A DNA stretch of 64,000 nt from Methanosarcina sp. MSH10X1. GTDB lineage: Archaea; Halobacteriota; Methanosarcinia; Methanosarcinales; Methanosarcinaceae. Of the stretch, positions 20,868 to 59,100 are shown one piece after another (position 1 is the stretch's first letter; every line of letters starts with the position of its first letter). The notes below the pieces were generated by a model that saw only the letters and a list, made by a program, of their open reading frames with translations, searched no databases and had not been told where the DNA came from. The DNA is taken from contig NZ_SCHL01000005.1 in NCBI RefSeq assembly GCF_004099695.1, positions 1 through 64,000 on the forward strand, given 5' to 3'. The position numbers and the translations under genes were made by a program.

Positions 20868-23363
20868 TCAGTTCGCTTCCGGAATTTTTACCTCTACCGG
20901 GTTCCCTTTCAAGATATCATTTTCCGTTACCTGGATTCCTGAGACTGTGGTGTTTTTTCCTGCACTAAGGGAGTAAGCTGACACAGCCCTGACCTCGCTT
21001 CCCGGATTCTCGGTCGAGTAAGGTACGGTTATTTCAAATGACCCGGTTTTATCCGATATTGCTGTATTCTGGTATGTGAATTTTCGGCCTGTATTCGAGC
21101 TGAGTTCAAGGGTGGCAGTAACGTTCTGCTCCGGGCTTGCAGTACCTGAAAGCCTGGCTCCCGGGACGAACTCGAATACCTTTACGTCATTTTTCTTTCC
21201 GTCCTTTTTGTCCGGGATAGAACTTTCATGGACAAGTCTCAGGTTCCCAAGATTTGTTCCGTCAAGTTCATGAAGTTTATATACTTCGGTATTTGCGAAT
21301 TCATTTGTAGCAGTCGCAACAGTTTCAAGCCCGTTTTTCCCATTGACGGTTTCAATTTTGAAGTACTGCTCGATATCCTTGCCTGCAAGCTCTACAATAG
21401 CCCCAAATTTACCGCTAGCCATCTGCTTGTCAGTTATTACGTATTTCACGTTGAGTTTTTCCATAATTGCCTTTGCTTCTTCCTCGGAATCGGTTGTGAA
21501 GAAATGTGCGGAATCCTGTATGCCAGTCTGGAAATTGTTTGAGACTGCAGGCCTTTCTGCCAGGTAGACAATCCAGTTACCGTAGTCCCACCAGCTCAGA
21601 ACCCCATATTCGGGAGTCTGAGAAGGCTCAGGGTAATAAGAGGTTTCAGGGCTTGAGGTTTCAAGCCAGGTGAGAGCTTCTTTCCATTCAGGATCAATTG
21701 AACTTCCTTCTTTTGCAAAAGCAAATCCTGCCCACAGGCAGGGTACAAACACAAGCCCTATCAGTACCACGGATGAGAAGATTTTGAAATAATCGGGTTG
21801 CAGGTTTTTTATCGAGCCCGATGGATTACTTGTTTTCGGCTTTGATTTTGCTTTTGACTTTGTTTCTTTTCCTGCCTTAAGTTCGGGCATGGAATTTTTC
21901 CCCGCCATCGGTCCGGATTTCAATAAATTCCTTGCTTCGGTCTCAAAATTAAAGGATTCAAGCAGGACCCAGAGGAAGTAAGCGGTAAGAATTGAAACGT
22001 TTACCGCGAATAGATAGGAAAAACGCCTCTGAGAGAGTGCTAAATACGCGAAAAAGACTGACCATAAGAGGAAAAATATCCCTTCAGGCTTTGATTTTTC
22101 CCCTTTCCACTCAAGGCCGAGCAGGAAAAGTCCTCCCAGCGCTGCGGGGAAGCAAAGACCCAGGCTTGACAGTACTGGCGAGAAGGTAAGTCTCCCCTGT
22201 GCGGTTAAAAATAACGGTACGGCTTCGGAAATTGTGCCTATGTATTCACCTTTTCCAAGGAAGAACCTCATACCTTCAATTACGAAAGCATAGGATTCGG
22301 TGGAAAAAATCTTGAGGGACAGGAGCCCTATCCCGGAAACCAGTATCAAGATTGCCGGATAGTATTTCCAGTCCACATCTTTTCTTGAGATATATGAGGA
22401 AAAGCCCCAGAGGACTAAGGTTCCTGCCAGCATGCTGAGCACATAAAATACCTGGAACCAGGAAAGGTACATTGCGCTCATTTCAAGTCCCGGGCGTGCG
22501 AAAGCCGCTGATAGGGGGATGGTAAAGAGAAGTGTTGCAAGAAGGCACGTAGTGGCACAGACAAGAAGATATTCCGAGTTTTTCCCTGCCCTGAAGTCAA
22601 GAGTGGATTGTATGAATACATAGAGTACGATAAAACTCACAAAAACCGGAGCTCCGACCCATGTGAAAATAAGGAGTGCGAAGAATAGCCCGGATGCTAC
22701 TGCGGAAGCCAGTGCTTTTGCAAGTTTCTTTTCTGAGGAGACGTTTCTAAGCGAAGCCAGGGAAAGCGCCCCCTCCCCTGCCCATTTTAAAGCAAGTATG
22801 AATAATGCATAAGCTGAAGTTGCGAGGAGAGTCTCTGCTACGTGATGGTCAACCGCACCGAACCGGGATATATATACATGTGCTGGAAGCACTGCAAAAA
22901 TCAAAGCTCCAAGGAATGCGTTTTTTCTGTCAAGTATCGAGACAGCCGCAATATACAGTGGAATTATAGTCAGAATCCCAAGAAGTACTGGCAGCAGGGC
23001 TCCTGCAAATTCGATGGTATGCAGATTAGGCTGCCCTCCTCCCAGGATTTTTGCAAGCAACCCGCCTAACAGGTCAAAAAAAGGAGGCCATCCGATTTCA
23101 AAACCCTGAGGATAATTAATGTAGGAATCGAAATTAAGGGAATGGGGAAAATTAGAAGCCGTATATACAATGCGCCGCATATGATAGAAGTCATCGAATC
23201 CATTGAAGGTTATGCTTCCGTTTGCAGTAACCGAGGCATATGACAGCATGCGCATGAGAAAAGCAACTACTACAACTGCGGTCAGAGCAATAATACTGAA
23301 TTTTAAATTATGAGCGGGCCGTTTTGCCACCGGACATCCCATGCCTTTGTTCGTTGTAACCAT
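20868..23363 (-). CDS. aglB: Oligosaccharyltransferase AglB (STT3 family)
   Basis: 831 residues, or 824 if the second ATG at 23342 is used. It transfers lipid-linked glycan to Asn in N-x-S/T sequons on the outer face. The N-terminal part has about a dozen membrane helices. The first external loop has the GFDDFYHMRR metal-binding motif and a GAVDHHVAETL motif follows. The catalytic WWDYGNW motif is near residue 590 in the soluble C-terminal domain, followed by a beta-rich end. A Lys/Ser-rich linker (about 490-515) precedes the last helix. It stands at the edge of the glycan cluster, converging on the DHH gene. It probably uses glycans made by the neighbouring transferases, which is inference. 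Confidence 0.94.
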   Translation of the reverse strand: MVTTNKGMGCPVAKRPAHNLKFSIIALTAVVVVAFLMRMLSYASVTANGSITFNGFDDFYHMRRIVYTASNFPHSLNFDSYINYPQGFEIGWPPFFDLLGGLLAKILGGGQPNLHTIEFAGALLPVLLGILTIIPLYIAAVSILDRKNAFLGALIFAVLPAHVYISRFGAVDHHVAETLLATSAYALFILALKWAGEGALSLASLRNVSSEKKLAKALASAVASGLFFALLIFTWVGAPVFVSFIVLYVFIQSTLDFRAGKNSEYLLVCATTCLLATLLFTIPLSAAFARPGLEMSAMYLSWFQVFYVLSMLAGTLVLWGFSSYISRKDVDWKYYPAILILVSGIGLLSLKIFSTESYAFVIEGMRFFLGKGEYIGTISEAVPLFLTAQGRLTFSPVLSSLGLCFPAALGGLFLLGLEWKGEKSKPEGIFFLLWSVFFAYLALSQRRFSYLFAVNVSILTAYFLWVLLESFNFETEARNLLKSGPMAGKNSMPELKAGKETKSKAKSKPKTSNPSGSIKNLQPDYFKIFSSVVLIGLVFVPCLWAGFAFAKEGSSIDPEWKEALTWLETSSPETSYYPEPSQTPEYGVLSWWDYGNWIVYLAERPAVSNNFQTGIQDSAHFFTTDSEEEAKAIMEKLNVKYVITDKQMASGKFGAIVELAGKDIEQYFKIETVNGKNGLETVATATNEFANTEVYKLHELDGTNLGNLRLVHESSIPDKKDGKKNDVKVFEFVPGARLSGTASPEQNVTATLELSSNTGRKFTYQNTAISDKTGSFEITVPYSTENPGSEVRAVSAYSLSAGKNTTVSGIQVTENDILKGNPVEVKIPEAN

Positions 23364-24045: not shown

Positions 24046-25149
24046 ATGAAAGTAGCCATATTTCATGATTATTTCGGAGCCATTGGCGGCGGAGAGAAGC
24101 TGGTGCTTATGCTGGCAAAATATTTCAATGCCGATGTAATTACTACTGACCTGAACCGGGAATCAGTAAAAAAAATGGGCTACTCCGATATCCGCATAAT
24201 CAGCCTGGGGAAAACCCCAAAAGTGCCTCCTCTCAAGCAGATTTCCGCATCTTTTCATTTTGCAGCCTGTGATTTCTCAAAGCAATACGATTTCTTCATC
24301 TTTTCAGGCAACTGGGCACACTTTGCGGCAAAGAAACACAAGCCCAACCTTTATTACTGCCACACTCCTACAAGAGCTTTCTATGACCTTTACGATACCT
24401 TTCTTAGCAGGCAGAGCCTACTGGTTTCTATCTTCTTCCGGATCTGGGTAAGGCTCCACAGGCCAGTTTCCGAATATTACCTTTCCCATGTCTGTAAAAT
24501 TGCCACTAATTCAAAGAATACCTCAAGAAGAATAGAAAAATACTTTAAAAGGGATGCTCAGGTAATCTATCCTCCCGTGGAAACTTCAAAGTTTATGTGC
24601 AGGGAATATGGAGATTTCTGGCTTTCAGTAAACCGACTTTACCCTGAAAAAAGAGTGGAAATCCAGATCGAAGCCTTCACGAAAATGCCGGACGAAGCGC
24701 TGGTTATCGTCGGCGGATACTCAAAAGGAGATCATGCGAAGAGTTACGCGGAAAATATAGTTAATAATTTACCGCAGAATGTGAAGGTGCTGGGCGAAAT
24801 TTCAGAGGCTGAACTGCTTGATATTTACTCCCGCTGTAAAGGCTTTATCTGTACTGCCATGGACGAGGACTTCGGGATGACACCCGTGGAGGCTATGGCA
24901 AGCGGAAAACCCGTAATAGCCGTAAATGAAGGAGGATTTAAGGAAACGGTAATTGACAGGAAGACAGGCATGCTTGTCAATGCTGACAGCCAGAGCATAA
25001 TCGAAGCGGTAAAATCAATATCCTGCAGACCGGACGCTTACAGAGATGAATGTTTTGATAGGGCTAAAGGGTTTGATATTTCCATTTTTACTGAAAAAAT
25101 AAAAAATGTGATTTACGATGATTCTCAAACATCTAAACGAGTTATATGA
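24046..25149 (+). CDS. Glycosyltransferase, GT4 family
   Basis: 367 residues, ATG at 24046. It begins [19 protein letters not shown], the Gly-rich N-terminal loop of retaining GT-B enzymes. The C-terminal Rossmann half has the donor-sugar motif [19 protein letters not shown], the E-x7-E signature. No signal peptide or membrane helix is present, so it should be cytoplasmic and act on a lipid-linked acceptor. Its last 32 bases overlap the ABC permease gene, and the two following genes are also tightly packed, so this is one operon with the exporter. The sugar and linkage cannot be told from sequence. Confidence 0.9.
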
Positions 25150-25897
25150 TTACCGGGACCTGATCTGGAAATTGTCCTGGGGAGAGTTCAAGCTCCGGTA
25201 TAAAAACTCCGTACTCGGGTACTTCTGGTCCCTTCTTGAACCCCTTTTAATGCTTACAGTCCTGTACCTTGTATTTTCCAATCTCATGAGGGTTCAGGTA
25301 GAGCACTACCAGTTATTTTTGTTAATGGGAATAATCCTGTGGAACTTCCTGAGCAGATCCACAACTATCGGGATGTTTGCTATAGTAGGAAGACCGGATA
25401 TGATTAAGAAAATCTATTTTCCAAGAGACATTTTCGTGATCTCATCCTGTATCACAGCTCTGCTTATGAGCCTCTTCGAATCTGTAGTATTCTTTATATT
25501 CATGGCAGTTTTCAGGGTTCCCATATCCGTTAATTTAGTGTACGCGCCTTTAATCCTGATTTTCCTTTTCACGCTGGCACTGGGCATTTCCATGGCGCTT
25601 TCAGCACTGAACGTTTACTACAGGGACGTGCAGTTTATCTGGGATGTGCTCATGCAGGCAGGCTTTTTTGCAACCCCGATCCTCTACAGTATGGATATCC
25701 TGCCTGAGACCCTGCAGAAAATCGTCCTTCTCAATCCCATGTCAAGGATCATAATTTCTGCGCGGGATACTGTAATCTATTCTACCCCGGCAAGCCCTGA
25801 GGATCTACTGTTCATGTTCGCCTCATCCGCTATTTTCCTGATAATAGGCTACGCTGTCTTTTCAAGACTGGAACCAGGCTTTGCGGAGGAAATTTAA
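25118..25897 (+). CDS. ABC-2 type polysaccharide export permease (Wzm-like)
   Basis: 259 residues with six predicted membrane helices. The N-terminal cytoplasmic segment [25 protein letters not shown] matches the LPS/teichoic-acid exporter permease family (Wzm/TagG). It should pair with the ATPase directly downstream, whose ATG shares a base with this gene's stop. The substrate is predicted to be a lipid-linked polysaccharide moved across the membrane. The start ATG lies inside the preceding glycosyltransferase gene. Confidence 0.92.
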
Positions 25898-27108
25898 TGC
25901 CTACGATAGAAGTTGAACACCTTCAAAAAGTCTTCCGGATACCCCACGAAAAAAGAAATACCATTTTTGAGTCTCTGGCAGGCTCGTTCAAGCCTCCCCA
26001 GTACGAGACATTCCAGGCTTTAAACGACATTAATTTTACGGTAGAAGAGGGGGAAGCCCTGGGAATTATAGGGGAAAACGGCAGTGGTAAAAGTACCCTG
26101 CTGAAAATAATAGCAAATATTCTGCGCCCTACCCGGGGGAATGTGAAAGTACATAAGAAAATCACTCCTTTCCTTGAGCTTGGTGTGGGTTTTCAGCCAA
26201 ACTTTACAGCGTCTGAGAATGTAAAGACTTATGCAACGATAATGGGGATTTCCAGAAGGGAAATTGAAAGTAAACTTGACGATGTGCTTGAATTTGCAGG
26301 GCTTGAAAAGTTCAGGGACACCAAATTGAAGAATTTCTCATCAGGCATGCAGGTCAGGTTAGCCTTCTCCACAGCAATCCAGACTGACCCCGAGATTCTT
26401 TTGATGGACGAAGTGCTGGCTGTAGGAGATATGGAATTCCAGCAGAAATGCCTCGATGTCCTTAACCAGTACAGGAAAGAAGGAGTGACAATAGTTTTCG
26501 TATCCCATGACCTGGGGTCTGTAAGAAGGTTCTGTGATAAGACCCTGCTGCTTAATAAAGGCGTGCAGGTAGCGCTCGGAAACACGGGAGATGTAATAGA
26601 CAGGTACGTATATGGCGGAAATCAGGCTTCGGAGCAGGTAGTTTCCGAAACCGAGCAGGTTGAAGTCGAAGGGGAGCCCGAAACGAAAAACCGCTGGGGT
26701 GATAAAGAAGTAGAAATAACCGGCGTCGAGTTCTATGACAAGTTTGGTAATTCAGGCTCCCGGTTTAATTCCTTTGATCCGGTAACAATCAGGATCTTCT
26801 ACCAGGCTCACAAAAAGATTTTTGACCCGGTTTTCGGGATTGCGCTTTATTCGGAAAAAGGAGATAATCTGTTCGGAACCAATACTGAGCTGAAAAATCT
26901 GACCATTGATTCGATTGAAGGAAGCGGGTACATTGACCTGGTAATAGATCGGCTTCCGATACTTACCGGAAGATTTTCATTAACTGTCGCGGTACACTCA
27001 CATGATCACAAGCCTTATGACTGGCACGACAGGCTGTACTCGTTTGATGTAATGCCAACTTCAAGAGATGCAGGATTTTTCGAAATCCCCTGTAACTGGA
27101 AGCTGTAA
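25897..27108 (+). CDS. ABC polysaccharide exporter ATPase with Wzt-like C-terminal domain
   Basis: 403 residues. The nucleotide-binding domain (1-240) has Walker A GENGSGKSTLL, signature FSSGMQVRLA, Walker B ILLMDEVLAVGD and switch FVSHD. After an acidic linker (about 250-265), residues 265-403 form a beta-sandwich resembling the carbohydrate-binding C-terminus of E. coli Wzt, which reads the capped end of the O-antigen before export (known for Wzt O9a). That extra domain and the methyltransferase gene 16 bases downstream both point to export of a terminally modified polymer. Confidence 0.92.
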   Translation: MPTIEVEHLQKVFRIPHEKRNTIFESLAGSFKPPQYETFQALNDINFTVEEGEALGIIGENGSGKSTLLKIIANILRPTRGNVKVHKKITPFLELGVGFQPNFTASENVKTYATIMGISRREIESKLDDVLEFAGLEKFRDTKLKNFSSGMQVRLAFSTAIQTDPEILLMDEVLAVGDMEFQQKCLDVLNQYRKEGVTIVFVSHDLGSVRRFCDKTLLLNKGVQVALGNTGDVIDRYVYGGNQASEQVVSETEQVEVEGEPETKNRWGDKEVEITGVEFYDKFGNSGSRFNSFDPVTIRIFYQAHKKIFDPVFGIALYSEKGDNLFGTNTELKNLTIDSIEGSGYIDLVIDRLPILTGRFSLTVAVHSHDHKPYDWHDRLYSFDVMPTSRDAGFFEIPCNWKL

Positions 27109-27124: not shown

Positions 27125-28528
27125 ATGGGTACTCTTGAATCCGAGGAAAAAGAGATTAAGGTCGAGGAAATAATGGAAAAAGTCCGAGAAAATATAAGTA
27201 AACGCAAGCATACCGGTACAGGTTACACGCCCGGATCTTTGGAAAATCCTGCAGATTCTCCTGAGGAATGCTTTGAAGAATATGTCCCTCAGGATGAACT
27301 TAATTACCTCGCTTCAAACTGGAGAATGGATAATTATAGTTATTCTATAAGCTCGCATCGACCATTTGCAGGCGCAATTCTTGTTAAAGGCAGAGAACTT
27401 GTTCACGGGGAAGTTAAAAGATATGTCGACTCTATCATCTCGAAACAAAACGAATTCAACAGGACTGTGGCATCGGCTCTGAATAAATTATCAAGGCAGG
27501 TCAGGTCAGAGGTAAACAGGGAAGTAACCGGCAAAATTGAAAGTCTGAAGGCTGATCTCTACAATCAGATGGATCAGGGAATCGAGAACCTTAAAACTGA
27601 AGTCAATAAAGAGTTAACTTCTGAAAAGGACAGCCTGAAGCTCGAAATCCGTAAAGAGATCAATAATGGGGCCGCCAGCCTGAAACCCGAGGTCTGTAAA
27701 GAAGTAGATACGGTTCTCAATTCTTTTATTTACTCTCTGAATACGGAACTCGAAAATAAGATCTGGCTGCGCAGCGTGCTGGATAAAAAGATTGGAGAAT
27801 CCTATGAGCTGCAAGAAATTAAGCTGTCTGAGCCCGAGGAACTGGGTATAAATTATTTCAAGTTTGAAGAAAGGTTCCGCGGCTCGTGCGAAGATATAAA
27901 GGGCAGGCAGAGCAAGTTTTTTAAATATTTCGAGGGACGCTCGAATGTTCTTGATATCGGATGCGGAAGGGGAGAATTTCTGGAACTCTTAAAGGAGAAA
28001 GGGGTAGATGCAAAAGGCGTGGACCTGGATGAGGATATGATTGCACAGTGCAGGTCCAGAGGGCTCTGCGTAGAGCTGAATGATGCGGTTTCGTATCTTG
28101 AGCAGCTTCCGGACGGATCCCTTGACGGCATTTTTATTGACCAGGTAGTTGAGCACCTCAAACCCGAGTATTTGACAAAACTATTACGTTTGTGCTACCG
28201 GAAACTCGGTTTCGGGCACTATATTCTCATCGAAACGGTAAACCCGCTTTCGCTTTTCTCCTTTGCGAACTTTTACATCGATCTCACGCATGTAAAGCCC
28301 GTACATCCCGAAACCCTGAAATTCTTGCTTGAATCGACAGGCTTTACCGAGCTTGAGGTTTTCTTTATTTCCCCGGTCTCTGAGGAAGCAAGGCTGGAAA
28401 AACTTCCTGTGTTTGAGGGAGTAACTGATAAAGAAAAAGCCATAACGGAAATTTATAACCGTAACATCGATTTACTGAACAGCAGGCTTTACGGGGCTCA
28501 GGACTATGCAGTAATAGGAAAGAAGTAA
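27125..28528 (+). CDS. Coiled-coil SAM-dependent methyltransferase, possible glycan-capping ruler
   Basis: 467 residues, ATG at 27125. Residues about 90-210 are a long charged coiled coil with a loose repeat built on SLKxEVxKEV and LKxEINKE steps. Residues 235-467 are a class I methyltransferase with VLDIGCGRGEFLELLKEKG, then VDLDEDM and the post-motif FIDQVVEHL. In E. coli the methyltransferase/kinase WbdD caps O9a chains, and its coiled coil sets their length; Wzt then recognises the cap. Here the coil precedes the catalytic domain rather than following it, and I see no kinase domain. The operon position after permease and ATPase supports a capping role. The ruler role is inference. Confidence 0.85.
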   Translation: MGTLESEEKEIKVEEIMEKVRENISKRKHTGTGYTPGSLENPADSPEECFEEYVPQDELNYLASNWRMDNYSYSISSHRPFAGAILVKGRELVHGEVKRYVDSIISKQNEFNRTVASALNKLSRQVRSEVNREVTGKIESLKADLYNQMDQGIENLKTEVNKELTSEKDSLKLEIRKEINNGAASLKPEVCKEVDTVLNSFIYSLNTELENKIWLRSVLDKKIGESYELQEIKLSEPEELGINYFKFEERFRGSCEDIKGRQSKFFKYFEGRSNVLDIGCGRGEFLELLKEKGVDAKGVDLDEDMIAQCRSRGLCVELNDAVSYLEQLPDGSLDGIFIDQVVEHLKPEYLTKLLRLCYRKLGFGHYILIETVNPLSLFSFANFYIDLTHVKPVHPETLKFLLESTGFTELEVFFISPVSEEARLEKLPVFEGVTDKEKAITEIYNRNIDLLNSRLYGAQDYAVIGKK

Positions 28529-28596
28529 ATCCGAGAAAAGCAACCATAAAAAAGTAGGTCTGAGAGCACCGGATCCAGAAAAACTAACTCTGGAAT

Positions 28597-28736
28597 AAGT
28601 TATCTGGAATAAGTTATCTGGAAAAAGTTATCTGGAAAAAGTTATCTGGAAAAAATGTTCTGGAGAACGTGATCTGGAAAAAATGTTCTGGAGAACGTGA
28701 TCTGGAGAACGTGATCTGGAAAAAGTGACTCCGGAA
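28597..28736. repeat. 14-bp tandem repeat, about ten copies
   Basis: The unit is AAGTTATCTGGAAA, repeated exactly every 14 bases. The first four copies are nearly identical, and later ones alternate between AAATGTTCTGGAGA and ACGTGATCTGGAAA. A diverged copy at 28583-28596 may be an eleventh. It lies between the methyltransferase and the DUF1796 gene, so an in-frame GTG at 28725 inside it is unlikely to be the true start of the latter. Confidence 0.88.
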
Positions 28737-28787
28737 CAAATAAACATCGTGCCGGCTCTGAGCAGTTTTCTGATATTACCTGAAGTA

Positions 28788-29852
28788 ATGATACCTATGA
28801 TACAAAACCCAGAAACAAAGTCTTATGATTTTATTGTAAGTTTGGGGTCTGCGTGTATTGTTGCAGACAAAATCCAGAAGAATAACCTGAGGCTATTTTC
28901 AAGTCCTGTTGACTGGATAGTCAGCAATCCGGATAGTACTGCCCAGTTTATAAAATCGAATTTTAAGGATTTTTTTAACCTGGATAATTTGAAGATAAAG
29001 GGCATTCACGACAATAACACCACTTATCTGGTTCAGGATACAAAGCATGATTTACTGTTTGTCCACGATTTCGTCAAGGGCATTCCTTTAAGCCTCCAGT
29101 ATCCCCATCTCAGGAAGAAGTTCAGCCGGCGAATCCTTAACTTCTACAGATGGTGTTCCGAAGCCGAAAGCGCTCTTTTTGTCATGTATTTCCCGGAGGC
29201 TGACAACTATTTGAACCGCATCAAAGAGCTGGAGCTCATCTTAAGGGAGAATTTCCCGAATCTGGATTTCGACCTGCTGATTGTATTTTTATCGGACAAA
29301 AAAGAAGCCAGGGTTTTGAAAGTCCTGGAAAATGCATACATAGCTTATGTATACCACGATGAAAGCAACTGGATTGATTCCGATCCTTTCTGGAGGCATA
29401 TTTTACGGCATTTTTCAATTAATTTCTCGCCGAAGACAATTGAACTTGCAAAGCTCGCATATCTCGAAAAGAAGCGCCTGAACTTCAAAAATACGGCGCA
29501 GTTTGTTTATACCGGGCTGGAGCAGTATGAAAGTAATGGAAGGTGGGCTACGGGAAACCGAACCCGGATTGGTGTAAAAATTCCCGGCAAAGTTTCCAGA
29601 ATGCTTGTAAAATGCAGTACTTATAAAAATAAATACTCTTTTGTATATGTAAACGGGGAATACGCAGGAGCTCTCGATTTCACGAAAAATAATTATCTTG
29701 AAAAAGAATTTGACATATCCTCGATTCCCGCGCCTGAAGAGAAATTTATCCTGGAATTCATCCATGATATGCCGGTTTCGCCACTGTATACAGGAGAATC
29801 CGGGGATTCAAGGGATCTGACAGTATACTTTAATAACATAAAATTTTCATGA
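28788..29852 (+). CDS. DUF1796 papain-like protein with C-terminal beta-sandwich module
   Basis: About 354 residues from ATG 28788 (28797 is also possible). The N-terminal domain has SYDFIVSLGSACIVADKI and FSSPVDWIVSN, typical of the DUF1796 family predicted to have a papain-like cysteine peptidase fold. The candidate nucleophile is the Cys in GSAC, with a later VHDF His. Residues about 240-354 are a separate beta-rich module starting TGLEQYESNGRWATG and ending SRDLTVYFNNIKF. Similar segments occur in three glycan-cluster neighbours. Bacterial relatives often sit in capsule or O-antigen loci. Activity is unknown; it may modify or handle glycan carriers. Confidence 0.75.
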   Translation: MIPMIQNPETKSYDFIVSLGSACIVADKIQKNNLRLFSSPVDWIVSNPDSTAQFIKSNFKDFFNLDNLKIKGIHDNNTTYLVQDTKHDLLFVHDFVKGIPLSLQYPHLRKKFSRRILNFYRWCSEAESALFVMYFPEADNYLNRIKELELILRENFPNLDFDLLIVFLSDKKEARVLKVLENAYIAYVYHDESNWIDSDPFWRHILRHFSINFSPKTIELAKLAYLEKKRLNFKNTAQFVYTGLEQYESNGRWATGNRTRIGVKIPGKVSRMLVKCSTYKNKYSFVYVNGEYAGALDFTKNNYLEKEFDISSIPAPEEKFILEFIHDMPVSPLYTGESGDSRDLTVYFNNIKFS

Positions 29853-29888
29853 AGGCTAAATCCTGAACCTTACATGAACTCTCATTTT

Positions 29889-31613
29889 TCAGGAGTTAGC
29901 TTCCGCCTTTGCAAATTCTTTACACACCTTCATAAGTTTATTTGTGACTATATCCCAGGTATGGTTCTCAATTACCTTTTTCAGCCCGTTTTCCCCAAAC
30001 CTGACAGCTAATTCTCTGTCCTTTAACAATTTCTCAATTTTTTCCACGATTTCATTTTCGTTTCCACACAGGAACCCGTCTTTTCCGTCCTCTATAAGGT
30101 TTGAAACCGCTCCGCAATAGAGATTTCCGATAACTGGCTTTTTCCGGGTCCAGGCTTCGCAGAATACCATCCCGAAACTCTCACTTTCGGACATCATGGC
30201 AAAAATTTCACAGGCTTCATAGGCATTTACGAGATCTTCCTGCGAGACTTTCCCCAGATATGAGACAAACTCGGAATTGATGGGCTGCTTATCATCATCA
30301 GGACCTATCATAACAAGATGAGAACTCTCAAAATCCCGATTTATCTTTTCCATAGCCTTAACCAGCAGGTCGTATCTCTTGCTCGGGTTTTTGCGGGAAA
30401 CGGTCAGGATTATCCTTTTGCCCTCAAGTTTATATTTCTTCAGGAAAGCTTTTCCGCTTATATTTTCCCTGAAAAATTCCTCCTTGCTTATGCCGGGCCC
30501 TATAAACAGGCTCTTAGCCCCGATCCTGTCATAAAAAGCCCGCTTTGAATAGGTTGAGTTTGCAAGCACCAGGTCTCCGGTTTTTATTGTTTCGTAGTAA
30601 TGTTTCCAGTGATAGAATTCATCGTCTATATGCATTAACGGCAGGAGTAGTACAGGGATATTGTGTTTTTTAGCAATTAAGGATGCCTGGAGCGTGTTAA
30701 AAGGGAGCATCTGCGATATTACGATATCATATTTCCCTGCATTATTTTCAAGCCATTCAAGCATTTCAGGCGACCTCGGACCTCTCATGTAATCGAAGAA
30801 TTTCCCGTACATGTCCGCTCTTTTCTCCGCATTGTCTCTGAAGTGCTCAATAAATAGTCCGCTTTTAATCAGGATTTTCCTGTAGTCGTTTTCCAGATCA
30901 ACCTGCTTCTCTGTATCCCCTGCAAGGTAACGGATTTGAGACACTCCTGTGCCGAGAGTCCTGAAGTCTTTAAGGGGTTTCCAACCCTGATTCAGTTTTA
31001 TGTATATCAGGAGTTCTCCTGAGATTTCCGGAAATTCGAAACTTACCTCTTCCCAATCCTTTGTTGCGGGTAGAGGATAGCGTAATTCTCTGTCTGAAGC
31101 GAGAAGAAGGATTTCTCCTCCGATTTTCTTCCTGTTCTGAATCGTCAGGCTTACTTTCGTAATCCTTCCGTCCTTAATTAAAATAATGGGATTCTTTTTT
31201 GTCCATCTCATTGAAAAGCTGCCATATCTTTCCAGTTGATTCCATCCGGTTAATAATGCCCCGTTTCCTTCTTCCAGGTGTTCCTTACAGATTCCGGTTA
31301 TTTTGGCTTCGGCTGTGCTTTCTTCTTCATCAAGTTCAGCCTGTATAAGCTTCTCCAGGGTAATTGAAACGTATCGATTGGGATTTTTTACAGGAAACCT
31401 GATCACTCTGACACCGTTAATTTCCTCATTTTCAAGGGTATTATCCCAGAGTTCTCCTGTTTTTATCAAATGGTTTATTCCCTGTGACCTGGTTGTACAG
31501 ATATCAACTTCCGCACCAAGCCTTCCGAGCCCTTCGGCTAATTCCCTCATATGGATTTCGGCTCCACCGTATACATCCTTCCCGTACCTGAATGTAACAC
31601 CTAAGATTCTCAT
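29889..31613 (-). CDS. GT4 glycosyltransferase with inserted beta-sandwich module
   Basis: 574 residues, about 180 longer than usual for GT4. The start reads MRILGVTFRYGKDVYGGAEIH. The donor-site half has SESESFGMVFCEAWTRKKPVIG (E-x7-E type). The extra length lies in the N-terminal Rossmann half: residues about 118-230 read as beta strands, with GWNQLERYGSFSMRWTKKN near the start and RTLGTGVSQIRYL near the end. This matches the module in neighbouring genes. The gene is transcribed divergently from the GT4 gene at 31653, with only 39 bases between start codons, so they must share a compact promoter region. Sugar specificity is unknown. Confidence 0.85.
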   Translation of the reverse strand: MRILGVTFRYGKDVYGGAEIHMRELAEGLGRLGAEVDICTTRSQGINHLIKTGELWDNTLENEEINGVRVIRFPVKNPNRYVSITLEKLIQAELDEEESTAEAKITGICKEHLEEGNGALLTGWNQLERYGSFSMRWTKKNPIILIKDGRITKVSLTIQNRKKIGGEILLLASDRELRYPLPATKDWEEVSFEFPEISGELLIYIKLNQGWKPLKDFRTLGTGVSQIRYLAGDTEKQVDLENDYRKILIKSGLFIEHFRDNAEKRADMYGKFFDYMRGPRSPEMLEWLENNAGKYDIVISQMLPFNTLQASLIAKKHNIPVLLLPLMHIDDEFYHWKHYYETIKTGDLVLANSTYSKRAFYDRIGAKSLFIGPGISKEEFFRENISGKAFLKKYKLEGKRIILTVSRKNPSKRYDLLVKAMEKINRDFESSHLVMIGPDDDKQPINSEFVSYLGKVSQEDLVNAYEACEIFAMMSESESFGMVFCEAWTRKKPVIGNLYCGAVSNLIEDGKDGFLCGNENEIVEKIEKLLKDRELAVRFGENGLKKVIENHTWDIVTNKLMKVCKEFAKAEANS

Positions 31614-31652
31614 AGCAGTCTTTATATTACATGAGACTTTACTTTTAAACTT

Positions 31653-33260
31653 ATGTCATGTGTGCTTGCTTTAAGCTTTCATCCTGCGTTTTACCCTCCA
31701 AAGAGCGGAGGAGAAGAGCGCTTATATAATATTTATAACAACCTTTCCAGGCACTTTAAGGTTAAACTTATTACATTTACCTATCCTAATGCTAAAAATT
31801 CCGTAGAAAGAGTCAATCACAATGAGAGCTTTACTGAAATAAGAATTCCAAAAACAAAACTAAATGCAGTTTTTCATCATCTTATCAACAGGTGTTCCGA
31901 TATCAAAGAGTGCTCGGCTGTTGTTACATCTCTGGAAAGCCGGTTCAACAGGAACTTTAAAAAAGTTCTTGAAGGTGAAATCGAGAATGCCGATACTATA
32001 ATTTTTGTATATCCTTTTTTATATACTGTTCCGGGCCGACTTTTAAACGGTAAAAAAATTATTTACGAATCACATAACCTCGAATACGAGTTAATGAAAG
32101 AAGCCTTCTCAAATTCGCTGCTCGGGAAACTTTTACTGGCTTATGTGTTCTATCTGGAAAAATCCTTATCCACAAAAAGCAGTTTTATCTTTGCGGTTTC
32201 GGAAGAGAATAAGGCTAAATTTTCCAGCCTTTATGGAATTGGAAGAAATAAAGTCTATGTCTCGCCCAATGGAGTAAATCCTGACGTATATAACAGCCTT
32301 TTTAAAGAAAACTCCTCTTTGAGCGGTTCCAGAATCTGTGCTTTTATAGGAAGCTATCACCCCCCAAATATTGAAGCTATAGAGAATATAGCAGAAATCG
32401 CATGCAAAATGCCTGACACTCTTTTTTATGTAGCCGGGAACGTTTCTCAATATTTTGTCAGCTCCAACCTCGTTGAGAAAACCGATCTGGATGTCCATAG
32501 CATCCTTAGCCCTCAGAAAGTAACTTTAGCAGACGGTTTTTATGGTGTGGAGTACTGGAATTCAGTCCCGACAGTCTGGTGTATGCCCGAATTCAGGATA
32601 AAAGTCCCGGAAACAGTCGAATCACTGGAATTGAAAGCTTATTCTCCTGATAATAAAACCCTTAAGGCAAGGATAGGGAGCAGGTCAGATTCATTCAGCC
32701 TGAAAGCCGGCTGGAACCCGGTTAAAATCAAAGACCTGAAGGATAAAAGTCCTGATATCCTGTTCGGCTGTGAGCCTTTTAAAAACGACACACGGTCTCT
32801 CGGAGTTGCTGTGCAGGAAATCCGTTACTCTGAAAACGGAAATACCTTCAAGTTTGATCTGAACCAGGGCTCAAACCAGCTGTATGCTCTTAAAAACGCT
32901 AAAAATGTCATATTTCTGGGCAGGGTAAGTGACGAAGAAAAACAGGCATTATATAGAGTTGCGGATATAGCCTTAAACCCGATGACAAGCGGTTCGGGTA
33001 CCAATATCAAAATGCTGGACTATATGGCAGCCGGCCTGCCGGTCGTCTCGACATCGGTAGGTGCGAGAGGGCTGAATCTGGAGAACTATGAAAATGCAAT
33101 AATCTGTGATATTCCGGATTTCCCCGTAAGAATCAATCAAATTTTAAGTGATAGTAAACTTTATTCGAAAATCAGTTCTAATGGGCGCAGGACTGTTGAA
33201 GACAACTTTGACTGGAGTAAAATAGCATCCGAGATGGTTAAGGTACTGGGTCAGACATGA
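31653..33260 (+). CDS. GT4 glycosyltransferase with inserted module (long paralogue)
   Basis: 535 residues. It is a paralogue of the next gene (395 residues), sharing FHPAFYPPKSGGEERLYNIY-like N-termini, GxYHPPN and GSGTNIKMLDYMAAGLPVVST. The length difference is almost entirely an insert at residues about 285-392, between the first strands of the C-terminal Rossmann domain and the FLGRVSDEEK segment. The insert starts ADGFYGVEYWNSVPTVW and ends TRSLGVAVQEIRYS, the same module as in three other cluster proteins. The stop overlaps the next ATG by four bases. It should be a cytoplasmic transferase on a lipid carrier. Confidence 0.87.
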   Translation: MSCVLALSFHPAFYPPKSGGEERLYNIYNNLSRHFKVKLITFTYPNAKNSVERVNHNESFTEIRIPKTKLNAVFHHLINRCSDIKECSAVVTSLESRFNRNFKKVLEGEIENADTIIFVYPFLYTVPGRLLNGKKIIYESHNLEYELMKEAFSNSLLGKLLLAYVFYLEKSLSTKSSFIFAVSEENKAKFSSLYGIGRNKVYVSPNGVNPDVYNSLFKENSSLSGSRICAFIGSYHPPNIEAIENIAEIACKMPDTLFYVAGNVSQYFVSSNLVEKTDLDVHSILSPQKVTLADGFYGVEYWNSVPTVWCMPEFRIKVPETVESLELKAYSPDNKTLKARIGSRSDSFSLKAGWNPVKIKDLKDKSPDILFGCEPFKNDTRSLGVAVQEIRYSENGNTFKFDLNQGSNQLYALKNAKNVIFLGRVSDEEKQALYRVADIALNPMTSGSGTNIKMLDYMAAGLPVVSTSVGARGLNLENYENAIICDIPDFPVRINQILSDSKLYSKISSNGRRTVEDNFDWSKIASEMVKVLGQT

Positions 33261-34444
33261 GAAAAATAGTTGTATTTAATGATTTTCCGATATTTCCCCC
33301 CAGGTTCGGGGGACAGATCAGGATTTACAATATTTACAGGAATTTATCCCGGCAATATAATGTAACCTATATCTGCTTTGGAGAATCGAAAATTGTTGAA
33401 GAAACCGAAATCTGCAACAATTTCCTGGAAGTGAGAATCCCCAAAAGTTTGTTTCATAAAAACATAAACGCGGTAGCAGGAAAATTATTAGGGGTATCCG
33501 TTGATGATATTTCTGCCATGTTCCTGTGCAGGTATAACCGGAAGCTTGACTCGGTTGCAAAGGACTATCTCAAAGATTCGGATCTTGTAATTCTGTCTCA
33601 CCCATATATGTTCCCCCTTATAAAGGACTATGCAAAAAATAAACCCTTAGTTTATGAAGCCCATAATGTCGAATCCTCCTTGAAGAAATCTTTGCTGGGT
33701 AACGGTCTTTTAAGAAATTACATTTCCGGTGAAGTTGAAAAGGTTGAAAGTGAACTTTCTCTCAGATCGGATTTGCTATTTGTTACATCAGAAGAAGACC
33801 GGAGCAGCATTAAAAAAATTTATGGGCTCGACGGAAATAAAATCCATGTATCCCCAAACGGGGTTGACACCGATATTTTCGATTCCATTTATAAGGAAGG
33901 GCAGCCTGTAAAAGAAAGAATAGTAGATCGCCCCCTTGTTATTTTCCTGGGAAGCGGTCATCCCCCCAATGTTCAGGCTGCAAAAATAATTATTAAAGAG
34001 ATTGCTCCGAAATTGAAAGATATCTATTTCCTGATTTGCGGAGGTGTTTGCTGGGGGGTAAAAGATGAGAATAAAGGCAAAAACGTAGGCTTAACATTCG
34101 AAGTTACTGAGGAAGAAAAACTTGAGTTGTACAGAGTCTCGGACGTTGCCATAAACCCGATGGTCAGCGGCTCCGGCACAAATATCAAGATGCTGGACTA
34201 TATGTCTGCTTCTCTACCTGTTATCTCCACGCCCGTAGGAGCCAGAGGGCTGAACCTGGTAAACTATGAAAATGTAATCGTCTGTGATATTCCTGAAATG
34301 CCTGAAAAGATCCGGGAAATTCTCCTGAACAAAGAATTGTACGCAAGTATTAGCACAAGCGGGCGCAGAGTAGTTGAGGGTGAGTATAACTGGAGAATAA
34401 TTGCACGGAACATGTGCAGGGCTCTGGACAAAGTGGTTGATTAA
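33257..34444 (+). CDS. GT4 glycosyltransferase (short paralogue)
   Basis: 395 residues, ATG at 33257 overlapping the upstream stop. It has normal GT4 length with NDFPIFPPRFGGQIRIYNIY at the N-terminus, VYEAHNVE in the middle and NPMVSGSGTNIKMLDYM in the donor site. It aligns end to end with the upstream protein except for the latter's ~110-140-residue insert, where this one has only a short loop (GGVCWGVKDENKGKNVG). The pair shows that the module was gained or lost after duplication. It converges on the PMT-like gene at 34505-36859. Confidence 0.9.
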   Translation: MRKIVVFNDFPIFPPRFGGQIRIYNIYRNLSRQYNVTYICFGESKIVEETEICNNFLEVRIPKSLFHKNINAVAGKLLGVSVDDISAMFLCRYNRKLDSVAKDYLKDSDLVILSHPYMFPLIKDYAKNKPLVYEAHNVESSLKKSLLGNGLLRNYISGEVEKVESELSLRSDLLFVTSEEDRSSIKKIYGLDGNKIHVSPNGVDTDIFDSIYKEGQPVKERIVDRPLVIFLGSGHPPNVQAAKIIIKEIAPKLKDIYFLICGGVCWGVKDENKGKNVGLTFEVTEEEKLELYRVSDVAINPMVSGSGTNIKMLDYMSASLPVISTPVGARGLNLVNYENVIVCDIPEMPEKIREILLNKELYASISTSGRRVVEGEYNWRIIARNMCRALDKVVD

Positions 34445-34504
34445 AAACCATCTTCAGTGCTCTAAACCTTATTTTTTGGGCATTTACATCCTTAAACTCA
34501 AATT

Positions 34505-36859
34505 TTAATTAAGCCTGATGTCCTGTATAGCAACACTTAAGTCTCTGGTATCCTCGGGGTTCGAATCTGCCAGATCGCAGGGCTTATTACTGCCTTCAAC
34601 AGTTGCGAGCTTGATAAGGTTCATTCCTTTCTCAAGATTTACAGCCGACTCTACGGTCACAAAACTGGTTGGTATCATGTTTGTAGAGACCGGGTTCACG
34701 TTTCCATTTACATATACCTCCAGGGTTCTTTGACAGTAAAAGCTTTCAGCCTTCATACTGAGGGTTGTATTCATATTTTTATCAGAGTATATGTAAAGAG
34801 TAGAGCTATTTCCCATCCACCTTGTGGGTTTGTTGTCCCAGTATTCTACAGTGTAAAAACCATCCCTCAAGACTATTGAACCTCTCTCAGGCTTTAATAT
34901 ATAAACCGAATTAACAGTTTCTTCTGTAGTTGCAGTGGAGAGAGGGCTTAATAAATACGTTTTAGCCTCTATTTTTTTGCTATTAAAGTCAACCAGCCTA
35001 TCGGGAGTGTAACAATAAGTATCAAAAAGAAGGAAGGTCCTATCTTCGGTAGAATTAAAATAATTAGAGTGAATATCTTTAACTGTTATATTATCTTTCA
35101 CCCAGGCGAATTTCCCTATATCGTATCCACTTCCGTAGTAAAAGGGCCAGTGGGTATATACTACTTCGGGACTCTGTTCCTGAAGTTCTTTATATCCTTC
35201 CGCACGAAGATTCCCCGAATTAGCATAATAAAACGTCGAATTTGTTGCAATTATGAAGTTAAATATCAGGGTTAGGGCGAGGACTAGAAGAACAATATGT
35301 TTACTTTTTTCAGAGTAAACCTTCGATCCGACTATTTTTGAAATGCCTGAGGAAAACAGAATTATTAAAGCCGGCATGGCAGGCATTAAGTATCTGAAAT
35401 CCAGGACACTGACATCAAGCAGGGGTTTCAAACCGTAGTCGATTACCCTGCCGTTGATTATGAAAAAGGCAGTTAAGGAAGCAGCCCAGATTAACATTGC
35501 TACTCCCCTCTTATCAATACTGATTTCAGTCTGGCGTAAACTGATGGAGACCAGTAAACACATTACTGACAATCCCAGCAGGATATAGTATGGTACGTAA
35601 TTTCCCCAGGGAAAAAGAGGAAATGAGAAAATTAGTTTGCTGGGATAGTTTTCAGAGATTATTAGTAACAGAATCTGAATTAATAACAATGCATAGAGGA
35701 ACATCTCACTCTTTTTCTCGGTTTTCAAGAACGCAAATACCGATAGAAAAAATATTCCGGTGTAAATATATTGTGCGATTTCGTGCCTTAAAAATCCTGC
35801 CCATATTGCTACGGTGTCTCCTCCAAAAGTCAATGGGGTAATAACTGAGAATTCGGCCATTATTGCTGAGTAATACATCACTTTAAAATAGTAAAGTACA
35901 GAGATCAAAAGCATAAAACCGATTGATATCAGGGCTTTTCGATCTACCCGATGGTATATAAAGAGACAGGCTAAAATTGCAGGAAATAATACAAGACCGG
36001 GATCCTTCGTTCCATAGGAAATAAAGGCAAAAATCAGAGATGAATAAAAGAACCGATCAGATCCGGTATTAAGGTACTTAAACAAAAAGAAGAAGGTTAT
36101 TATCACAAAGGACGTAAAGGGCATATCAAGATAAGCCCATTTATTAACCAGGAAGAACGCCGGAAAGGTAAGAGAGACTAACAGGGCTATGAATGCCGTG
36201 AAATCGTCATATAACTCTCTGGAAATAGCATATATTCCAAAAATTCCGCAAATACCCAGGGACATATTTATTAAATGTGTTAGGGTTTCGGATTCTCCAA
36301 ACAGCCTGTAAAATCCTCCCCATATAAGATACAGGAAGGAATGCCTTTCTTCCGTGCTGCCAAAATAGGAATGGGTAAGATAATATTTGGAGCGTACGAC
36401 ATGCTGTACCGCGTCCCAGCGGTACGCAAAGTCAAAACCCCAGAACCAGGTAACTAAAAGTGAGAATAGAAGAGTAAAAAATATGACTTTCGACCGTGTT
36501 TTGTAATACCTGTATATGCATAAAGAAAGTATCGGAATTACCAGGAATTTCAACAAATTTAGCGCATGAAGCAGCTGGTAATTTTTGAAATAGTGTCCTG
36601 CAAATAAGGATAAGAAAAAGCCTGAACATATAATTGCAAGAATTATATCAAAATAATGCGTTTCCGGCAATTTATTATACTGGCGTGTAGATGTTTGATT
36701 GCCATATATTTGATTATCTAGCTGATTATCTAGCTGATTATCTAGCTGATTATCTAACTGATTATCTAACTGATTATCTAGCTGATTATCTAACTGATTA
36801 TCTGCCTGGTTGTCTACCCGGCTGTCTGCCTGATTAGCCCGACTGCATATTTGATTCAA
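34505..36859 (-). CDS. PMT/ArnT-like membrane glycosyltransferase with C-terminal module
   Basis: 784 residues. After a repetitive N-terminus (about residues 16-50, DNQL repeats) come about eleven membrane helices with GFDFAYRWDAVQHV in the first external loop, where GT39/GT83 enzymes carry their catalytic acidic residues. These use polyprenyl-phosphate sugars on the outer face. Residues about 657-784 form a soluble beta module starting RDGFYTVEYWDNKPTRW and ending TRDLSVAIQDIRLN, matching the insert in the GT4 at 31653. No Met lies between the repeat tract and the first helix, so the repeats are probably translated, unless a TTG just before the helix is used. Confidence 0.82.
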   Translation of the reverse strand: MNQICSRANQADSRVDNQADNQLDNQLDNQLDNQLDNQLDNQLDNQLDNQIYGNQTSTRQYNKLPETHYFDIILAIICSGFFLSLFAGHYFKNYQLLHALNLLKFLVIPILSLCIYRYYKTRSKVIFFTLLFSLLVTWFWGFDFAYRWDAVQHVVRSKYYLTHSYFGSTEERHSFLYLIWGGFYRLFGESETLTHLINMSLGICGIFGIYAISRELYDDFTAFIALLVSLTFPAFFLVNKWAYLDMPFTSFVIITFFFLFKYLNTGSDRFFYSSLIFAFISYGTKDPGLVLFPAILACLFIYHRVDRKALISIGFMLLISVLYYFKVMYYSAIMAEFSVITPLTFGGDTVAIWAGFLRHEIAQYIYTGIFFLSVFAFLKTEKKSEMFLYALLLIQILLLIISENYPSKLIFSFPLFPWGNYVPYYILLGLSVMCLLVSISLRQTEISIDKRGVAMLIWAASLTAFFIINGRVIDYGLKPLLDVSVLDFRYLMPAMPALIILFSSGISKIVGSKVYSEKSKHIVLLVLALTLIFNFIIATNSTFYYANSGNLRAEGYKELQEQSPEVVYTHWPFYYGSGYDIGKFAWVKDNITVKDIHSNYFNSTEDRTFLLFDTYCYTPDRLVDFNSKKIEAKTYLLSPLSTATTEETVNSVYILKPERGSIVLRDGFYTVEYWDNKPTRWMGNSSTLYIYSDKNMNTTLSMKAESFYCQRTLEVYVNGNVNPVSTNMIPTSFVTVESAVNLEKGMNLIKLATVEGSNKPCDLADSNPEDTRDLSVAIQDIRLN
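36711..36830. repeat. 12-bp coding tandem repeat (DNQL repeats)
   Basis: About ten units of TGATTATCTAGC, with C/A change near the end and diverged copies toward 36830. Read on the minus strand each unit gives Asp-Asn-Gln-Leu. All are in frame within the cytoplasmic N-terminus of the PMT-like protein. Confidence 0.88.
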
Positions 36860-37767: not shown

Positions 37768-37907
37768 CTCGATATGGTCAAGTGTCTTACTTCTATCGAT
37801 TCTTGATACTGGTTAAGTGTTTTAATTCTATCGATTCTTGATACCGGTTAAGTGTCTTACTTCTATCGATTCTTGATACCGGTTAAGTGTCTTACTTCTA
37901 TCGGTTC
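37768..37907. repeat. 35-bp tandem repeat, four copies
   Basis: The unit begins TTGATACCGGTTAAGTG and ends TACTTCTATCGATTC. Copies start at 37768 (diverged), 37803, 37838 and 37873, exactly 35 bases apart. The gap 37679-37940 around it holds no gene I can support. Confidence 0.88.
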
Positions 37908-56134: not shown

Positions 56135-59100
56135 ATTCGCGAGCAAGATCCATTAAAACAAGGATTGAAACCAAACACCTGCAGCAAAAATAGCTCCAAA
56201 GATACAGTATTCGCGAGCAAGATCCATTAAAACAAGGATTGAAACTAAAATAAAATATTCTGTTATATAAACAGTTTAAAATTCGCGAGCAAGATCCATT
56301 AAAACAAGGATTGAAACAAGGAAAAAGAGAAAAAGAGAAAGTGATTATAAAGATTCGCGAGCAAGATCCATTAAAACAAGGATTGAAACAAAAAGATGTT
56401 GAAAGTGGGCGTGGAATAAATGGCCATTCGCGAGCAAGATCCATTAAAACAAGGATTGAAACCTCATACGCTTTTTTTCGTGCATCTCCAAAAAATCATT
56501 CGCGAGCAAGATCCATTAAAACAAGGATTGAAACTAATATTATTGCTCTTGACATTTATAGTGGTAGAATTCGCGAGCAAGATCCATTAAAACAAGGATT
56601 GAAACCCTGAAGCTCGTCCTTTGCGGCTTGATTTGTAATTATTCGCGAGCAAGATCCATTAAAACAAGGATTGAAACTTTTCCCGCCTTCTATTGGTACG
56701 GGTTTTTTAGAGTATTCGCGAGCAAGATCCATTAAAACAAGGATTGAAACAATATCTTTGAAGATATATAGGATAGTACACAGAAAATTCGCGAGCAAGA
56801 TCCATTAAAACAAGGATTGAAACGAATATACATCGAGCCCGTCTGAATCTATGAAGAATTCGCGAGCAAGATCCATTAAAACAAGGATTGAAACCCTGGA
56901 TGTCAGCGGCTGCGCTTGCTGCACTTACGGATTCGCGAGCAAGATCCATTAAAACAAGGATTGAAACATTACAGTTCCTTCCTGAATTCCTGTTGCGTTT
57001 GACAATTCGCGAGCAAGATCCATTAAAACAAGGATTGAAACTTACCATTTATCCACCTGTCGCCTTTTTCATTTTTATTCGCGAGCAAGATCCATTAAAA
57101 CAAGGATTGAAACAGAGTACACAAACCGGACAAAGAGATGGGGGGGAAGAATTCGCGAGCAAGATCCATTAAAACAAGGATTGAAACAACAAAAACTGGG
57201 GACCTCTCAATAAACAGCTTGATTCGCGAGCAAGATCCATTAAAACAAGGATTGAAACTCAACAGTTCAGAAAATGTATCACAAGGACTATTCATTCGCG
57301 AGCAAGATCCATTAAAACAAGGATTGAAACCTGTTAATTAGGGAGTAGAATATTATGGTTAATATTCGCGAGCAAGATCCATTAAAACAAGGATTGAAAC
57401 CATTTGTTACAGGTTGAAAGTGTTGTTCCATCAGTATTCGCGAGCAAGATCCATTAAAACAAGGATTGAAACGTGAGTATATTGATCTTAGGGTTCATTG
57501 GTTGAGAATTCGCGAGCAAGATCCATTAAAACAAGGATTGAAACTAGCTATCCAATGCGTTCCACATATCCCACAAACCATTCGCGAGCAAGATCCATTA
57601 AAACAAGGATTGAAACAGTTAAAGGCACTAAACCTGTAGTTGGAGTACATTCGCGAGCAAGATCCATTAAAACAAGGATTGAAACAAATCGGTAAAAATG
57701 CAGATGAAGCGCAGGGAGCTATTCGCGAGCAAGATCCATTAAAACAAGGATTGAAACTGAGACATTTTATAGCCTTTCTTTTTAAAGGCGTTGATTCGCG
57801 AGCAAGATCCATTAAAACAAGGATTGAAACAAGAAAATGTCTGATGCCTGTATTAATGTTAGTAATCATTCGCGAGCAAGATCCATTAAAACAAGGATTG
57901 AAACAACTTTTCTTTGCACTACTGGCGGCTTGCTTAAATTCGCGAGCAAGATCCATTAAAACAAGGATTGAAACTAATGCTGGAAAAGACGTAGTCCAGA
58001 AACTCATAGAATTCGCGAGCAAGATCCATTAAAACAAGGATTGAAACTCAAATATTATAAATGATTTCATTAACAGACGGCTAATTCGCGAGCAAGATCC
58101 ATTAAAACAAGGATTGAAACTTGCTGTGTATGCAGGATAGCCGGCTGGATGGAGCATTCGCGAGCAAGATCCATTAAAACAAGGATTGAAACAGTGGCGG
58201 GATTACGGGACCATAGAAAACCCAGACTATTCGCGAGCAAGATCCATTAAAACAAGGATTGAAACTCTTCATATGCCCGCGCCCGGTCCTCAATTGTGCC
58301 TATTCGCGAGCAAGATCCATTAAAACAAGGATTGAAACGGAAACTGGACGAAGAGAAAGCAGAAATTCAGAAAAATTCGCGAGCAAGATCCATTAAAACA
58401 AGGATTGAAACAAAAGCAGCAGGAAAGTCTGACTAAAAAGCTTGAAGAAATTCGCGAGCAAGATCCATTAAAACAAGGATTGAAACTATTTAGTAATTAG
58501 ATGCCTGCTTGCTTCAAGTTATTCGCGAGCAAGATCCATTAAAACAAGGATTGAAACCATCAAGGAAAGGTACTACCAGAAGGAAAAGACAAATTCGCGA
58601 GCAAGATCCATTAAAACAAGGATTGAAACGCATTTTTTTGATTGAGAGGGAAAGCGAGTCCCTCGATAAAAAGATTCGCGAGCAAGATCCATTAAAACAA
58701 GGATTGAAACTAATTAGGAATGTATTCTATAATCACAACATTATGATTCGCGAGCAAGATCCATTAAAACAAGGATTGAAACCGGATTATATGGTAAAAT
58801 CCCTGGAATACGGGGAAATTCGCGAGCAAGATCCATTAAAACAAGGATTGAAACCAGCTTTCCAGAATTCTTGAAGTCCTTGAAAAGATATTCGCGAGCA
58901 AGATCCATTAAAACAAGGATTGAAACCAGTCGAAGGAGAGGACGATATAGAAGTTATCCGATTCGCGAGCAAGATCCATTAAAACAAGGATTGAAACCAA
59001 AAGATGGAGCTAACAATCTAGTAACAGATACAGAGATTCGCGAGCAAGATCCATTAAAACAAGGATTGAAACGCAAGTGCCGGGTACGACGTCGCGGCCA

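Follow-up and report, generated by a model that had tools for sequence, protein, structure and literature searches.

Why do several enzymes of one glycan pathway carry the same small domain, at different places, and what might that domain do for them? The question is raised by the first 64,000 nucleotides of contig NZ_SCHL01000005.1 from Methanosarcina sp. MSH10X1 (the window, that is, the whole stretch analysed). Its glycan cluster (20868-42642) encodes AglB, Wzm, Wzt with a Wzt_C domain, a methyltransferase, and GT4 and GT2 glycosyltransferases (GTs). A first-pass annotation had claimed that four proteins of this cluster share a segment of 110-130 residues, and all four were located with the start and end strings and at the positions claimed. 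The module is real, but its copies are slightly shorter, at 100-119 residues.

The first copy (29511..29849, + strand, 113 aa) forms the C-terminus of a DUF1796 protein (gene 28725-29852; PF08795 match with E 3e-17 and 63.3 bits, where the cut-off is 23). The second (30927..31250, - strand, 108 aa) interrupts the N-terminal Rossmann half of a GT4 enzyme, here termed GT4N (gene 29889-31613), and the third (32532..32831, + strand, 100 aa) the C-terminal Rossmann half of another, GT4C (gene 31653-33260). The fourth (34508..34864, - strand, 119 aa) is the C-terminus of a PMT_2/GT-C membrane protein, the PMT-like protein (gene 34505-36859). All four were placed with profiles built without window copies. 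AlphaFold2 models add to the placement of the GT4N and PMT copies, Foldseek to that of the PMT copy, and alignment with a module-less paralogue to that of the GT4C copy. No further copy, direct or permuted, was found in the window, and AglB gave no profile match that would reveal it as a hidden carrier.

An alignment of the four window copies alone is weak, with 19-38% identity to the PMT copy. Outside sequences were therefore used to test homology. The low identity that the PMT copy shares with those of GT4N (19%) and DUF1796 (24%) is what would be expected if chance likeness between short beta-rich segments had been mistaken for kinship. A profile built from the GT-C copies of other archaea plus the window's PMT copy, with no other host class, detects copies of the GT4N and GT4C types and gives a weaker match to those of the DUF1796 type. 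When 54 copies from outside the window are used, 4 of the 691 window open reading frames match, exactly those expected (E 7e-36, 8e-13, 1.9e-9 and 1.2e-7), and the next-best reading frame has an E of 0.084. A stricter profile of 49 GT-C, Wzt and methyltransferase copies, from which window copies and the GT4N, GT4C and DUF1796 host classes were all withheld, still recovers the PMT (E 1e-36), GT4N (3e-6), GT4C (3e-5) and DUF1796 (9e-4) copies. The best of 5,000 shuffled decoys reaches 0.32. Orthologues of the DUF1796 copy match the same profile at E 2e-7 and 2e-5. Profile-profile comparisons give probabilities of 97.4 for GT4N, 96.9 for GT4C and 94.3 for DUF1796. The DUF1796 copy is, by sequence, the weakest link. 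Judged by profile homology independent of the window copies, one domain family joins all four segments, and the earlier proposal of a single homologous module fused to or inserted in unrelated glycan enzymes holds. Chance likeness is refuted by the non-window profiles, the decoys, the profile-profile tests, the predicted structure and the existence of orthologues in other genera.

What kind of domain is it? Structures were predicted for two copies, the PMT module alone and GT4N at full length. For the PMT copy AlphaFold2, given a 58-sequence alignment, predicts a sandwich of nine strands (predicted local distance difference test, pLDDT, 97.1; predicted template-modelling score, pTM, 0.88). In the GT4N model (pLDDT 87.9), residues 124-231 are all beta (pLDDT ~85-97) and are flanked by helices of the N-terminal Rossmann half. 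Both predictions agree with the beta-sandwich first suggested. Down to E 1e-3, nearly all Foldseek matches of the PMT copy in the PDB are carbohydrate-binding modules (CBMs) of the CBM6, CBM35, CBM22 and CBM4 families or CBM-bearing glucanotransferases, with 31 matches at E<=1e-3 and TM-scores of ~0.5-0.6. The best of these are CBM6 and CBM35 structures (for example, 2cdp, 2w3j and 2w1w), with E ~1e-4 and TM-scores of ~0.6. AlphaFold2 and Foldseek thus predict a beta-sandwich jelly-roll fold like that of CBM6 and CBM35.

Sequence databases do not recognise the module. No Pfam family covers it, PMT_2 being the only match in the PMT-like protein, and neither NCBIfam nor PHROGs has a match within the module stretch. 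PDB sequences give no module match at E<0.1, with a faint echo of the CBM35 structure 2w3j at E 0.19. Neither Pfam nor PDB sequences, then, place the module in a recognised CBM family. It differs from CBM6 and CBM35 in residing on biosynthetic and export proteins rather than hydrolases and in having a conserved signature of its own (E..., RW, DxRxLSVAxQxI). We infer that the module binds carbohydrate. It probably represents an unclassified CBM6/CBM35-like jelly-roll family that acts as a glycan handle on the nascent lipid-linked chain.

There are precedents for such a handle. The EmbA/B/C and AftD arabinosyltransferases and the GT136 enzyme ORF12 carry a CBM after their last GT-C transmembrane helix, outside the membrane, and in EmbC, AftD and ORF12 these CBMs bind the acceptor polysaccharide (PMC7341804, PMC11127046). 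The window's PMT-like protein has the same layout according to hydropathy: a 245-residue tail follows an odd number of hydrophobic segments, and the module is predicted to lie beyond the last transmembrane helix, facing outside. In other hosts with multiple transmembrane helices the module also comes after the transmembrane region. Unlike the EmbC, AftD and ORF12 domains, however, the present module also occurs on cytosolic GT4, GT2, methyltransferase, DUF1796 and Wzt proteins. Deletion of the ORF12 CBM does not abolish activity (PMC11127046), and therefore a modest, concentration-raising role for the module is plausible by analogy.

A second precedent is Wzt_C, a jelly-roll that recognises the (capped) glycan in ABC (ATP-binding cassette)-dependent O-antigen export (PMC9445017). 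Some loci, and even some single proteins, have both Wzt_C and the module, but in such proteins the two are separate stretches, the module being an extra domain after Wzt_C in Chloroflexota Wzt. Wzt_C (PF14524) was tried as a homologue of the module and rejected, since hhalign gave a probability of 5.6 against eight Wzt_C sequences. The Klebsiella O7 terminator ORF6, a methyltransferase-kinase, was predicted in 2024 to carry a CBM, and the authors of that study were aware of none on other terminators (PMC11231755). Compared by description only, it resembles the present case in having a CBM on a chain-terminating enzyme and differs in being a single protein. In the open-access literature we found no description of one homologous module on GT4, GT2, methyltransferase, DUF1796, Wzt and GT-C proteins, or of a permuted copy. 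CBMs on GT-C enzymes and Wzt are already known; one homologous module running through a whole pathway appears to be new.

How widely is the module distributed, and on which proteins? It occurs in both Halobacteriota and Chloroflexota, making the family wider than first proposed. The module occurs in 24 of the 296 Halobacteriota genomes sampled and in 20 of 31 from the window's genus. Most copies sit after the transmembrane region of proteins with multiple transmembrane helices, at times in tandem, and hosts of this kind are also present in Chloroflexota. A PMT_2 or DUF2079 match is seen in only part of these hosts. The others lack any Pfam match, and the name GT-C-like is given to them solely for their layout and length. 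Two such proteins (L048:1138-1848, L027:1120-2250) have two or three tandem module-like domains, the first of which is more divergent. Archaeal hosts comprise GT-C, GT4, DUF1796 and methyltransferase proteins. DUF1796 itself is uncommon in the phylum, with 3 of 393 genomes having it, each from the window's genus and each with the module, and plasmid-borne bacterial DUF1796 matches end before the module.

Matches were found in 28 of 301 Chloroflexota genomes, where the other hosts are S-adenosylmethionine-dependent methyltransferases and Wzt ATPases that carry the module after Wzt_C. Copies of these two kinds have the motif DTRxLGVAV, which fits the RxLG-type endings that the first-pass annotation ascribed to bacterial O-antigen enzymes. 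Lokiarchaeota, Methanoregula and one WOR-3 metagenome-assembled genome also match. This last is the seed genome and the only match among 147 genomes of its phylum; because the contig measures only 3.6 kb, it is possibly mis-binned archaeal DNA. Plasmid records searched by sequence with single modules or a whole GT-C protein gave no match, and viral contigs gave pattern matches with no confirmed relative. Every host of identifiable type serves glycan assembly or export, and no identified host lies outside these processes.

Chloroflexota loci contain further copies of a more divergent kind. In six Wzm-Wzt-GT2-GT4-methyltransferase operons (L103, L104, L119, L120, L121 and L122) nearly every enzyme has a copy: Wzt at its end, GT4 within its N-terminal half and GT2 internally, in rotated strand order. 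Four of the six also have it at the end of the methyltransferase; in the other two none was detected, or the contig end intervenes. In the GT2 enzymes (L103:6565-8013, L104:8061-9656, L119:11398-12855, L120:6566-7960, L121:8498-10108, L122:1134-2729) the copy lies between the two GT-A halves. The copies in these operons were found with a doubled profile, made of two module alignments placed end to end, which picks up both direct and circularly permuted copies. The match of the GT2 group spans the join of this profile (probability 95.9, score 66.9). Control scores are no higher than 19.9 for 60 column-shuffled profiles, 17.5 for the reversed profile and 18.1 for a doubled Wzt_C. Taken one by one, GT2 proteins give weak scores (E 2e-5 to 5e-3), and it is the group that carries the claim of permutation. 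A rotated or inserted domain would be easiest to understand if its two ends were close together, as in jelly rolls.

Operons in which Wzt, GT2, GT4 and methyltransferase all bear the module are also what a scaffolded complex needs. A multi-enzyme complex might be built by copies that pair with one another or with a shared protein partner, and such docking or oligomerisation is the main rival to a glycan handle. It has a precedent in the DUF1975 inserts of TarM, SdgB/SdgA and GtfA/GtfB, which bind a polymeric acceptor and also oligomerise, TarM as a trimer and GtfA/GtfB as a heterodimer (PMC8561734). Foldseek matches the GT4N model to GT-B enzymes such as MshA and also to TarM, SdgB and GtfA, which have their own beta-insert at the corresponding place. 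Like theirs, the GT4N insert is a beta-rich domain in the N-terminal, acceptor-side Rossmann half, which is not so for GT4C. However, the DUF1975 domain is described as having ten antiparallel strands, whereas the module is a CBM-like sandwich that occurs at other sites and on other enzymes too, and GT4N has no DUF1975-type (TarM/GtfA) Pfam match.

We consider docking rather unlikely as the shared role. GT-C copies are predicted to lie on one side of the membrane and those of GT4, methyltransferase and Wzt on the other, the nearest folds are CBMs rather than docking domains, and most module-bearing archaeal genomes have the module only on GT-C-like proteins and thus offer no cytosolic partner copy. 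The suggestion that the module recruits all four window proteins to one assembly fares poorly for a similar reason: a single complex is unlikely because the GT-C copy is predicted to be outside the membrane, whereas a cytosolic location is expected for the GT4 copies. Nor are the two roles exclusive. The SdgB insert serves both acceptor binding and dimerisation (PMC8561734), and by analogy docking and glycan binding could coexist in the cytosolic copies.

Is the module needed by its hosts? A natural empty site adjoins GT4C. The neighbouring paralogue GT4x (33257..34444, + strand) is 43% identical to GT4C and can be aligned with it on both flanks of the module position, the module itself being missing. 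Three-genome alignments show the same pair, a module-bearing GT4C beside a module-less GT4x, in G025 and G308. In G302 the GT4C orthologue has no module, which was either lost or never gained, and the linker sequence is still present. The same locus (L112:14845-15654, L112:10852-12174) has a short Wzt, seemingly without Wzt_C, and a GT4N that retains the module. A GT4N relative in G288 is missing its N-terminal half and gives no information on the insertion site.

Such module-less orthologues and paralogues would suit a structural or allosteric add-on with no glycan ligand, whose task would be to stabilise the fold, to touch the membrane or to set a limit on acceptor length. The best-conserved residues are close to the ends of the chain and perhaps simply keep the sandwich closed, as this explanation would have it. 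It seems improbable all the same, and more so than docking, for it leaves unexplained the restriction of identified hosts to glycan proteins, the repeated acquisition at different sites and the retention of the module in permuted form in GT2.

A tree of 70 copies (117 columns, with limited resolution) indicates how the fusions arose. Each host class forms one group, save GT-C and Wzt, which account for two changes each. All classes together require six changes of host, the minimum possible, against 26 when labels are shuffled. Because copies group by host enzyme and not by genome, the fusions are old and specialised; on the same grouping we reject the idea that the module was recently copied from gene to gene in a single genome. 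The acquisitions include at least three GT4 insertion sites (archaeal GT4N, archaeal GT4C and Chloroflexota GT4, the last compared by eye), one insertion in GT2 and four kinds of C-terminal fusion. The tree thus points to a limited number of acquisitions, after which the module was inherited with its enzyme.

Sorting by host class, with deep splits between groups, also fits copies that share fold and ancestry and yet bind different ligands, a glycan in GT-C enzymes and a protein, the lipid carrier or a donor elsewhere, with no common handle. The GT4, methyltransferase and most Wzt copies, which belong to cytosolic transferases and exporters, do split from the GT-C and DUF1796 copies (96/84 on the tree). 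In Chloroflexota, however, the Wzt and methyltransferase copies are close sisters (98/92) with flanking motifs in common, which suggests a common ligand for these at least. A different ligand for each host is, in our estimate, unlikely.

The glycan handle remains the favoured reading. It draws on the fold, on the exclusively glycan-related identified hosts, on the analogues EmbC, AftD, ORF12, Wzt_C and SdgB, and on the predicted presence of copies on both membrane faces. The last is expected for a glycan ligand, because a glycan, but not one protein complex, would be available to all copies. Several observations weigh against it. The TM-scores to CBMs reach only ~0.6 at 10-19% identity, and a fold is no proof of function, as jelly-roll sandwiches mediate protein contacts too. 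The conserved residues E7, W16, R107 and L109 may be structural. Copies on different hosts are only ~15-40% identical, so that a ligand common to all copies of a locus is at most putative. The absence of the module from GT4x and from the G302 orthologue of GT4C indicates that it is dispensable in evolution.

If the module is a glycan handle, the archaeal AglB/Wzm-Wzt locus would supply cytosolic GT4N, GT4C and DUF1796 proteins and an outward-facing GT-C enzyme each with its own copy. Each copy would grip the growing lipid-linked glycan, or some motif within it, and so raise the local concentration of acceptor and orient the chain end at the active site of the host enzyme. In bacterial loci the module on Wzt, methyltransferase, GT2 and GT4 would act likewise, from polymerisation through capping to export. 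A bolder proposal is that the whole assembly line, from polymerising transferases and capping methyltransferase to exporter and outward-facing GT-C enzyme, is marked by one glycan-gripping module gained repeatedly in archaea and bacteria, and that the chain is passed from copy to copy. This we put forward tentatively, as a possibility more doubtful than the handle itself.

The surroundings of the four genes suggest that the archaeon has an ABC-dependent glycan pathway, possibly with capping, that feeds N-glycosylation. At the edge of the cluster lies the AglB oligosaccharyltransferase (20868..23363, - strand; PF02516, PF22627, PF18079). A Wzm-type ABC-2 permease (25118..25897, + strand; PF01061) is followed by a Wzt-type ATPase with a C-terminal Wzt_C glycan-cap-binding domain (25897..27108, + strand; PF00005, PF14524). 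Next is a methyltransferase (27125..28528, + strand; MetW/Methyltransf_23), which has no module and whose place beside Wzt is conserved in G025 and G296. The helical N-terminal half of this protein is probably a coiled coil, and it is a possible chain terminator. Among 11 archaeal genomes that bear the module or share the locus, 10 have a Wzm homologue, and in most of them ~6-15 kb separate it from a module gene. G025 and G296 conserve the gene order GT4a-Wzm-Wzt-methyltransferase-variable GTs-GT-C, most of which is also kept in G308. The variable part in G296 has instead a methyltransferase with a C-terminal module (L125:7895-8974), whose gene adjoins that of a module-bearing GT-C protein.

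Short repeats accompany two of the module-bearing genes. Ten 14-bp tandem repeats (TCTGGAAAAAGTGA, 28589-28728) occupy the gap 5' of the DUF1796 gene and extend to its listed GTG start, and the true start may be further in. The listed reading frame of the PMT-like protein has an N-terminal (DNQL)n stretch encoded by a 12-bp repeat (7.8 copies, 36711-36803), which may lie upstream of the true start. Elsewhere in the glycan cluster, an intergenic gap holds 3.8 copies of a 35-bp tandem repeat (37776-37907). Outside the cluster, the window has a large CRISPR-like array (56135-59659; 37-bp repeat ATTCGCGAGCAAGATCCATTAAAACAAGGATTGAAAC, spacers ~35 bp).

How the separate enzymes of ABC-dependent and archaeal glycan pathways retain one lipid-linked chain is largely an open question, and the CBMs known in such pathways are single cases on Wzt or GT-C enzymes. 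A module found on successive enzymes of one locus makes the hand-over of the chain directly testable. It also defines an uncatalogued domain family for the annotation of archaeal and Chloroflexota glycan loci, in which its presence can serve as a tag that points to likely members of the pathway.

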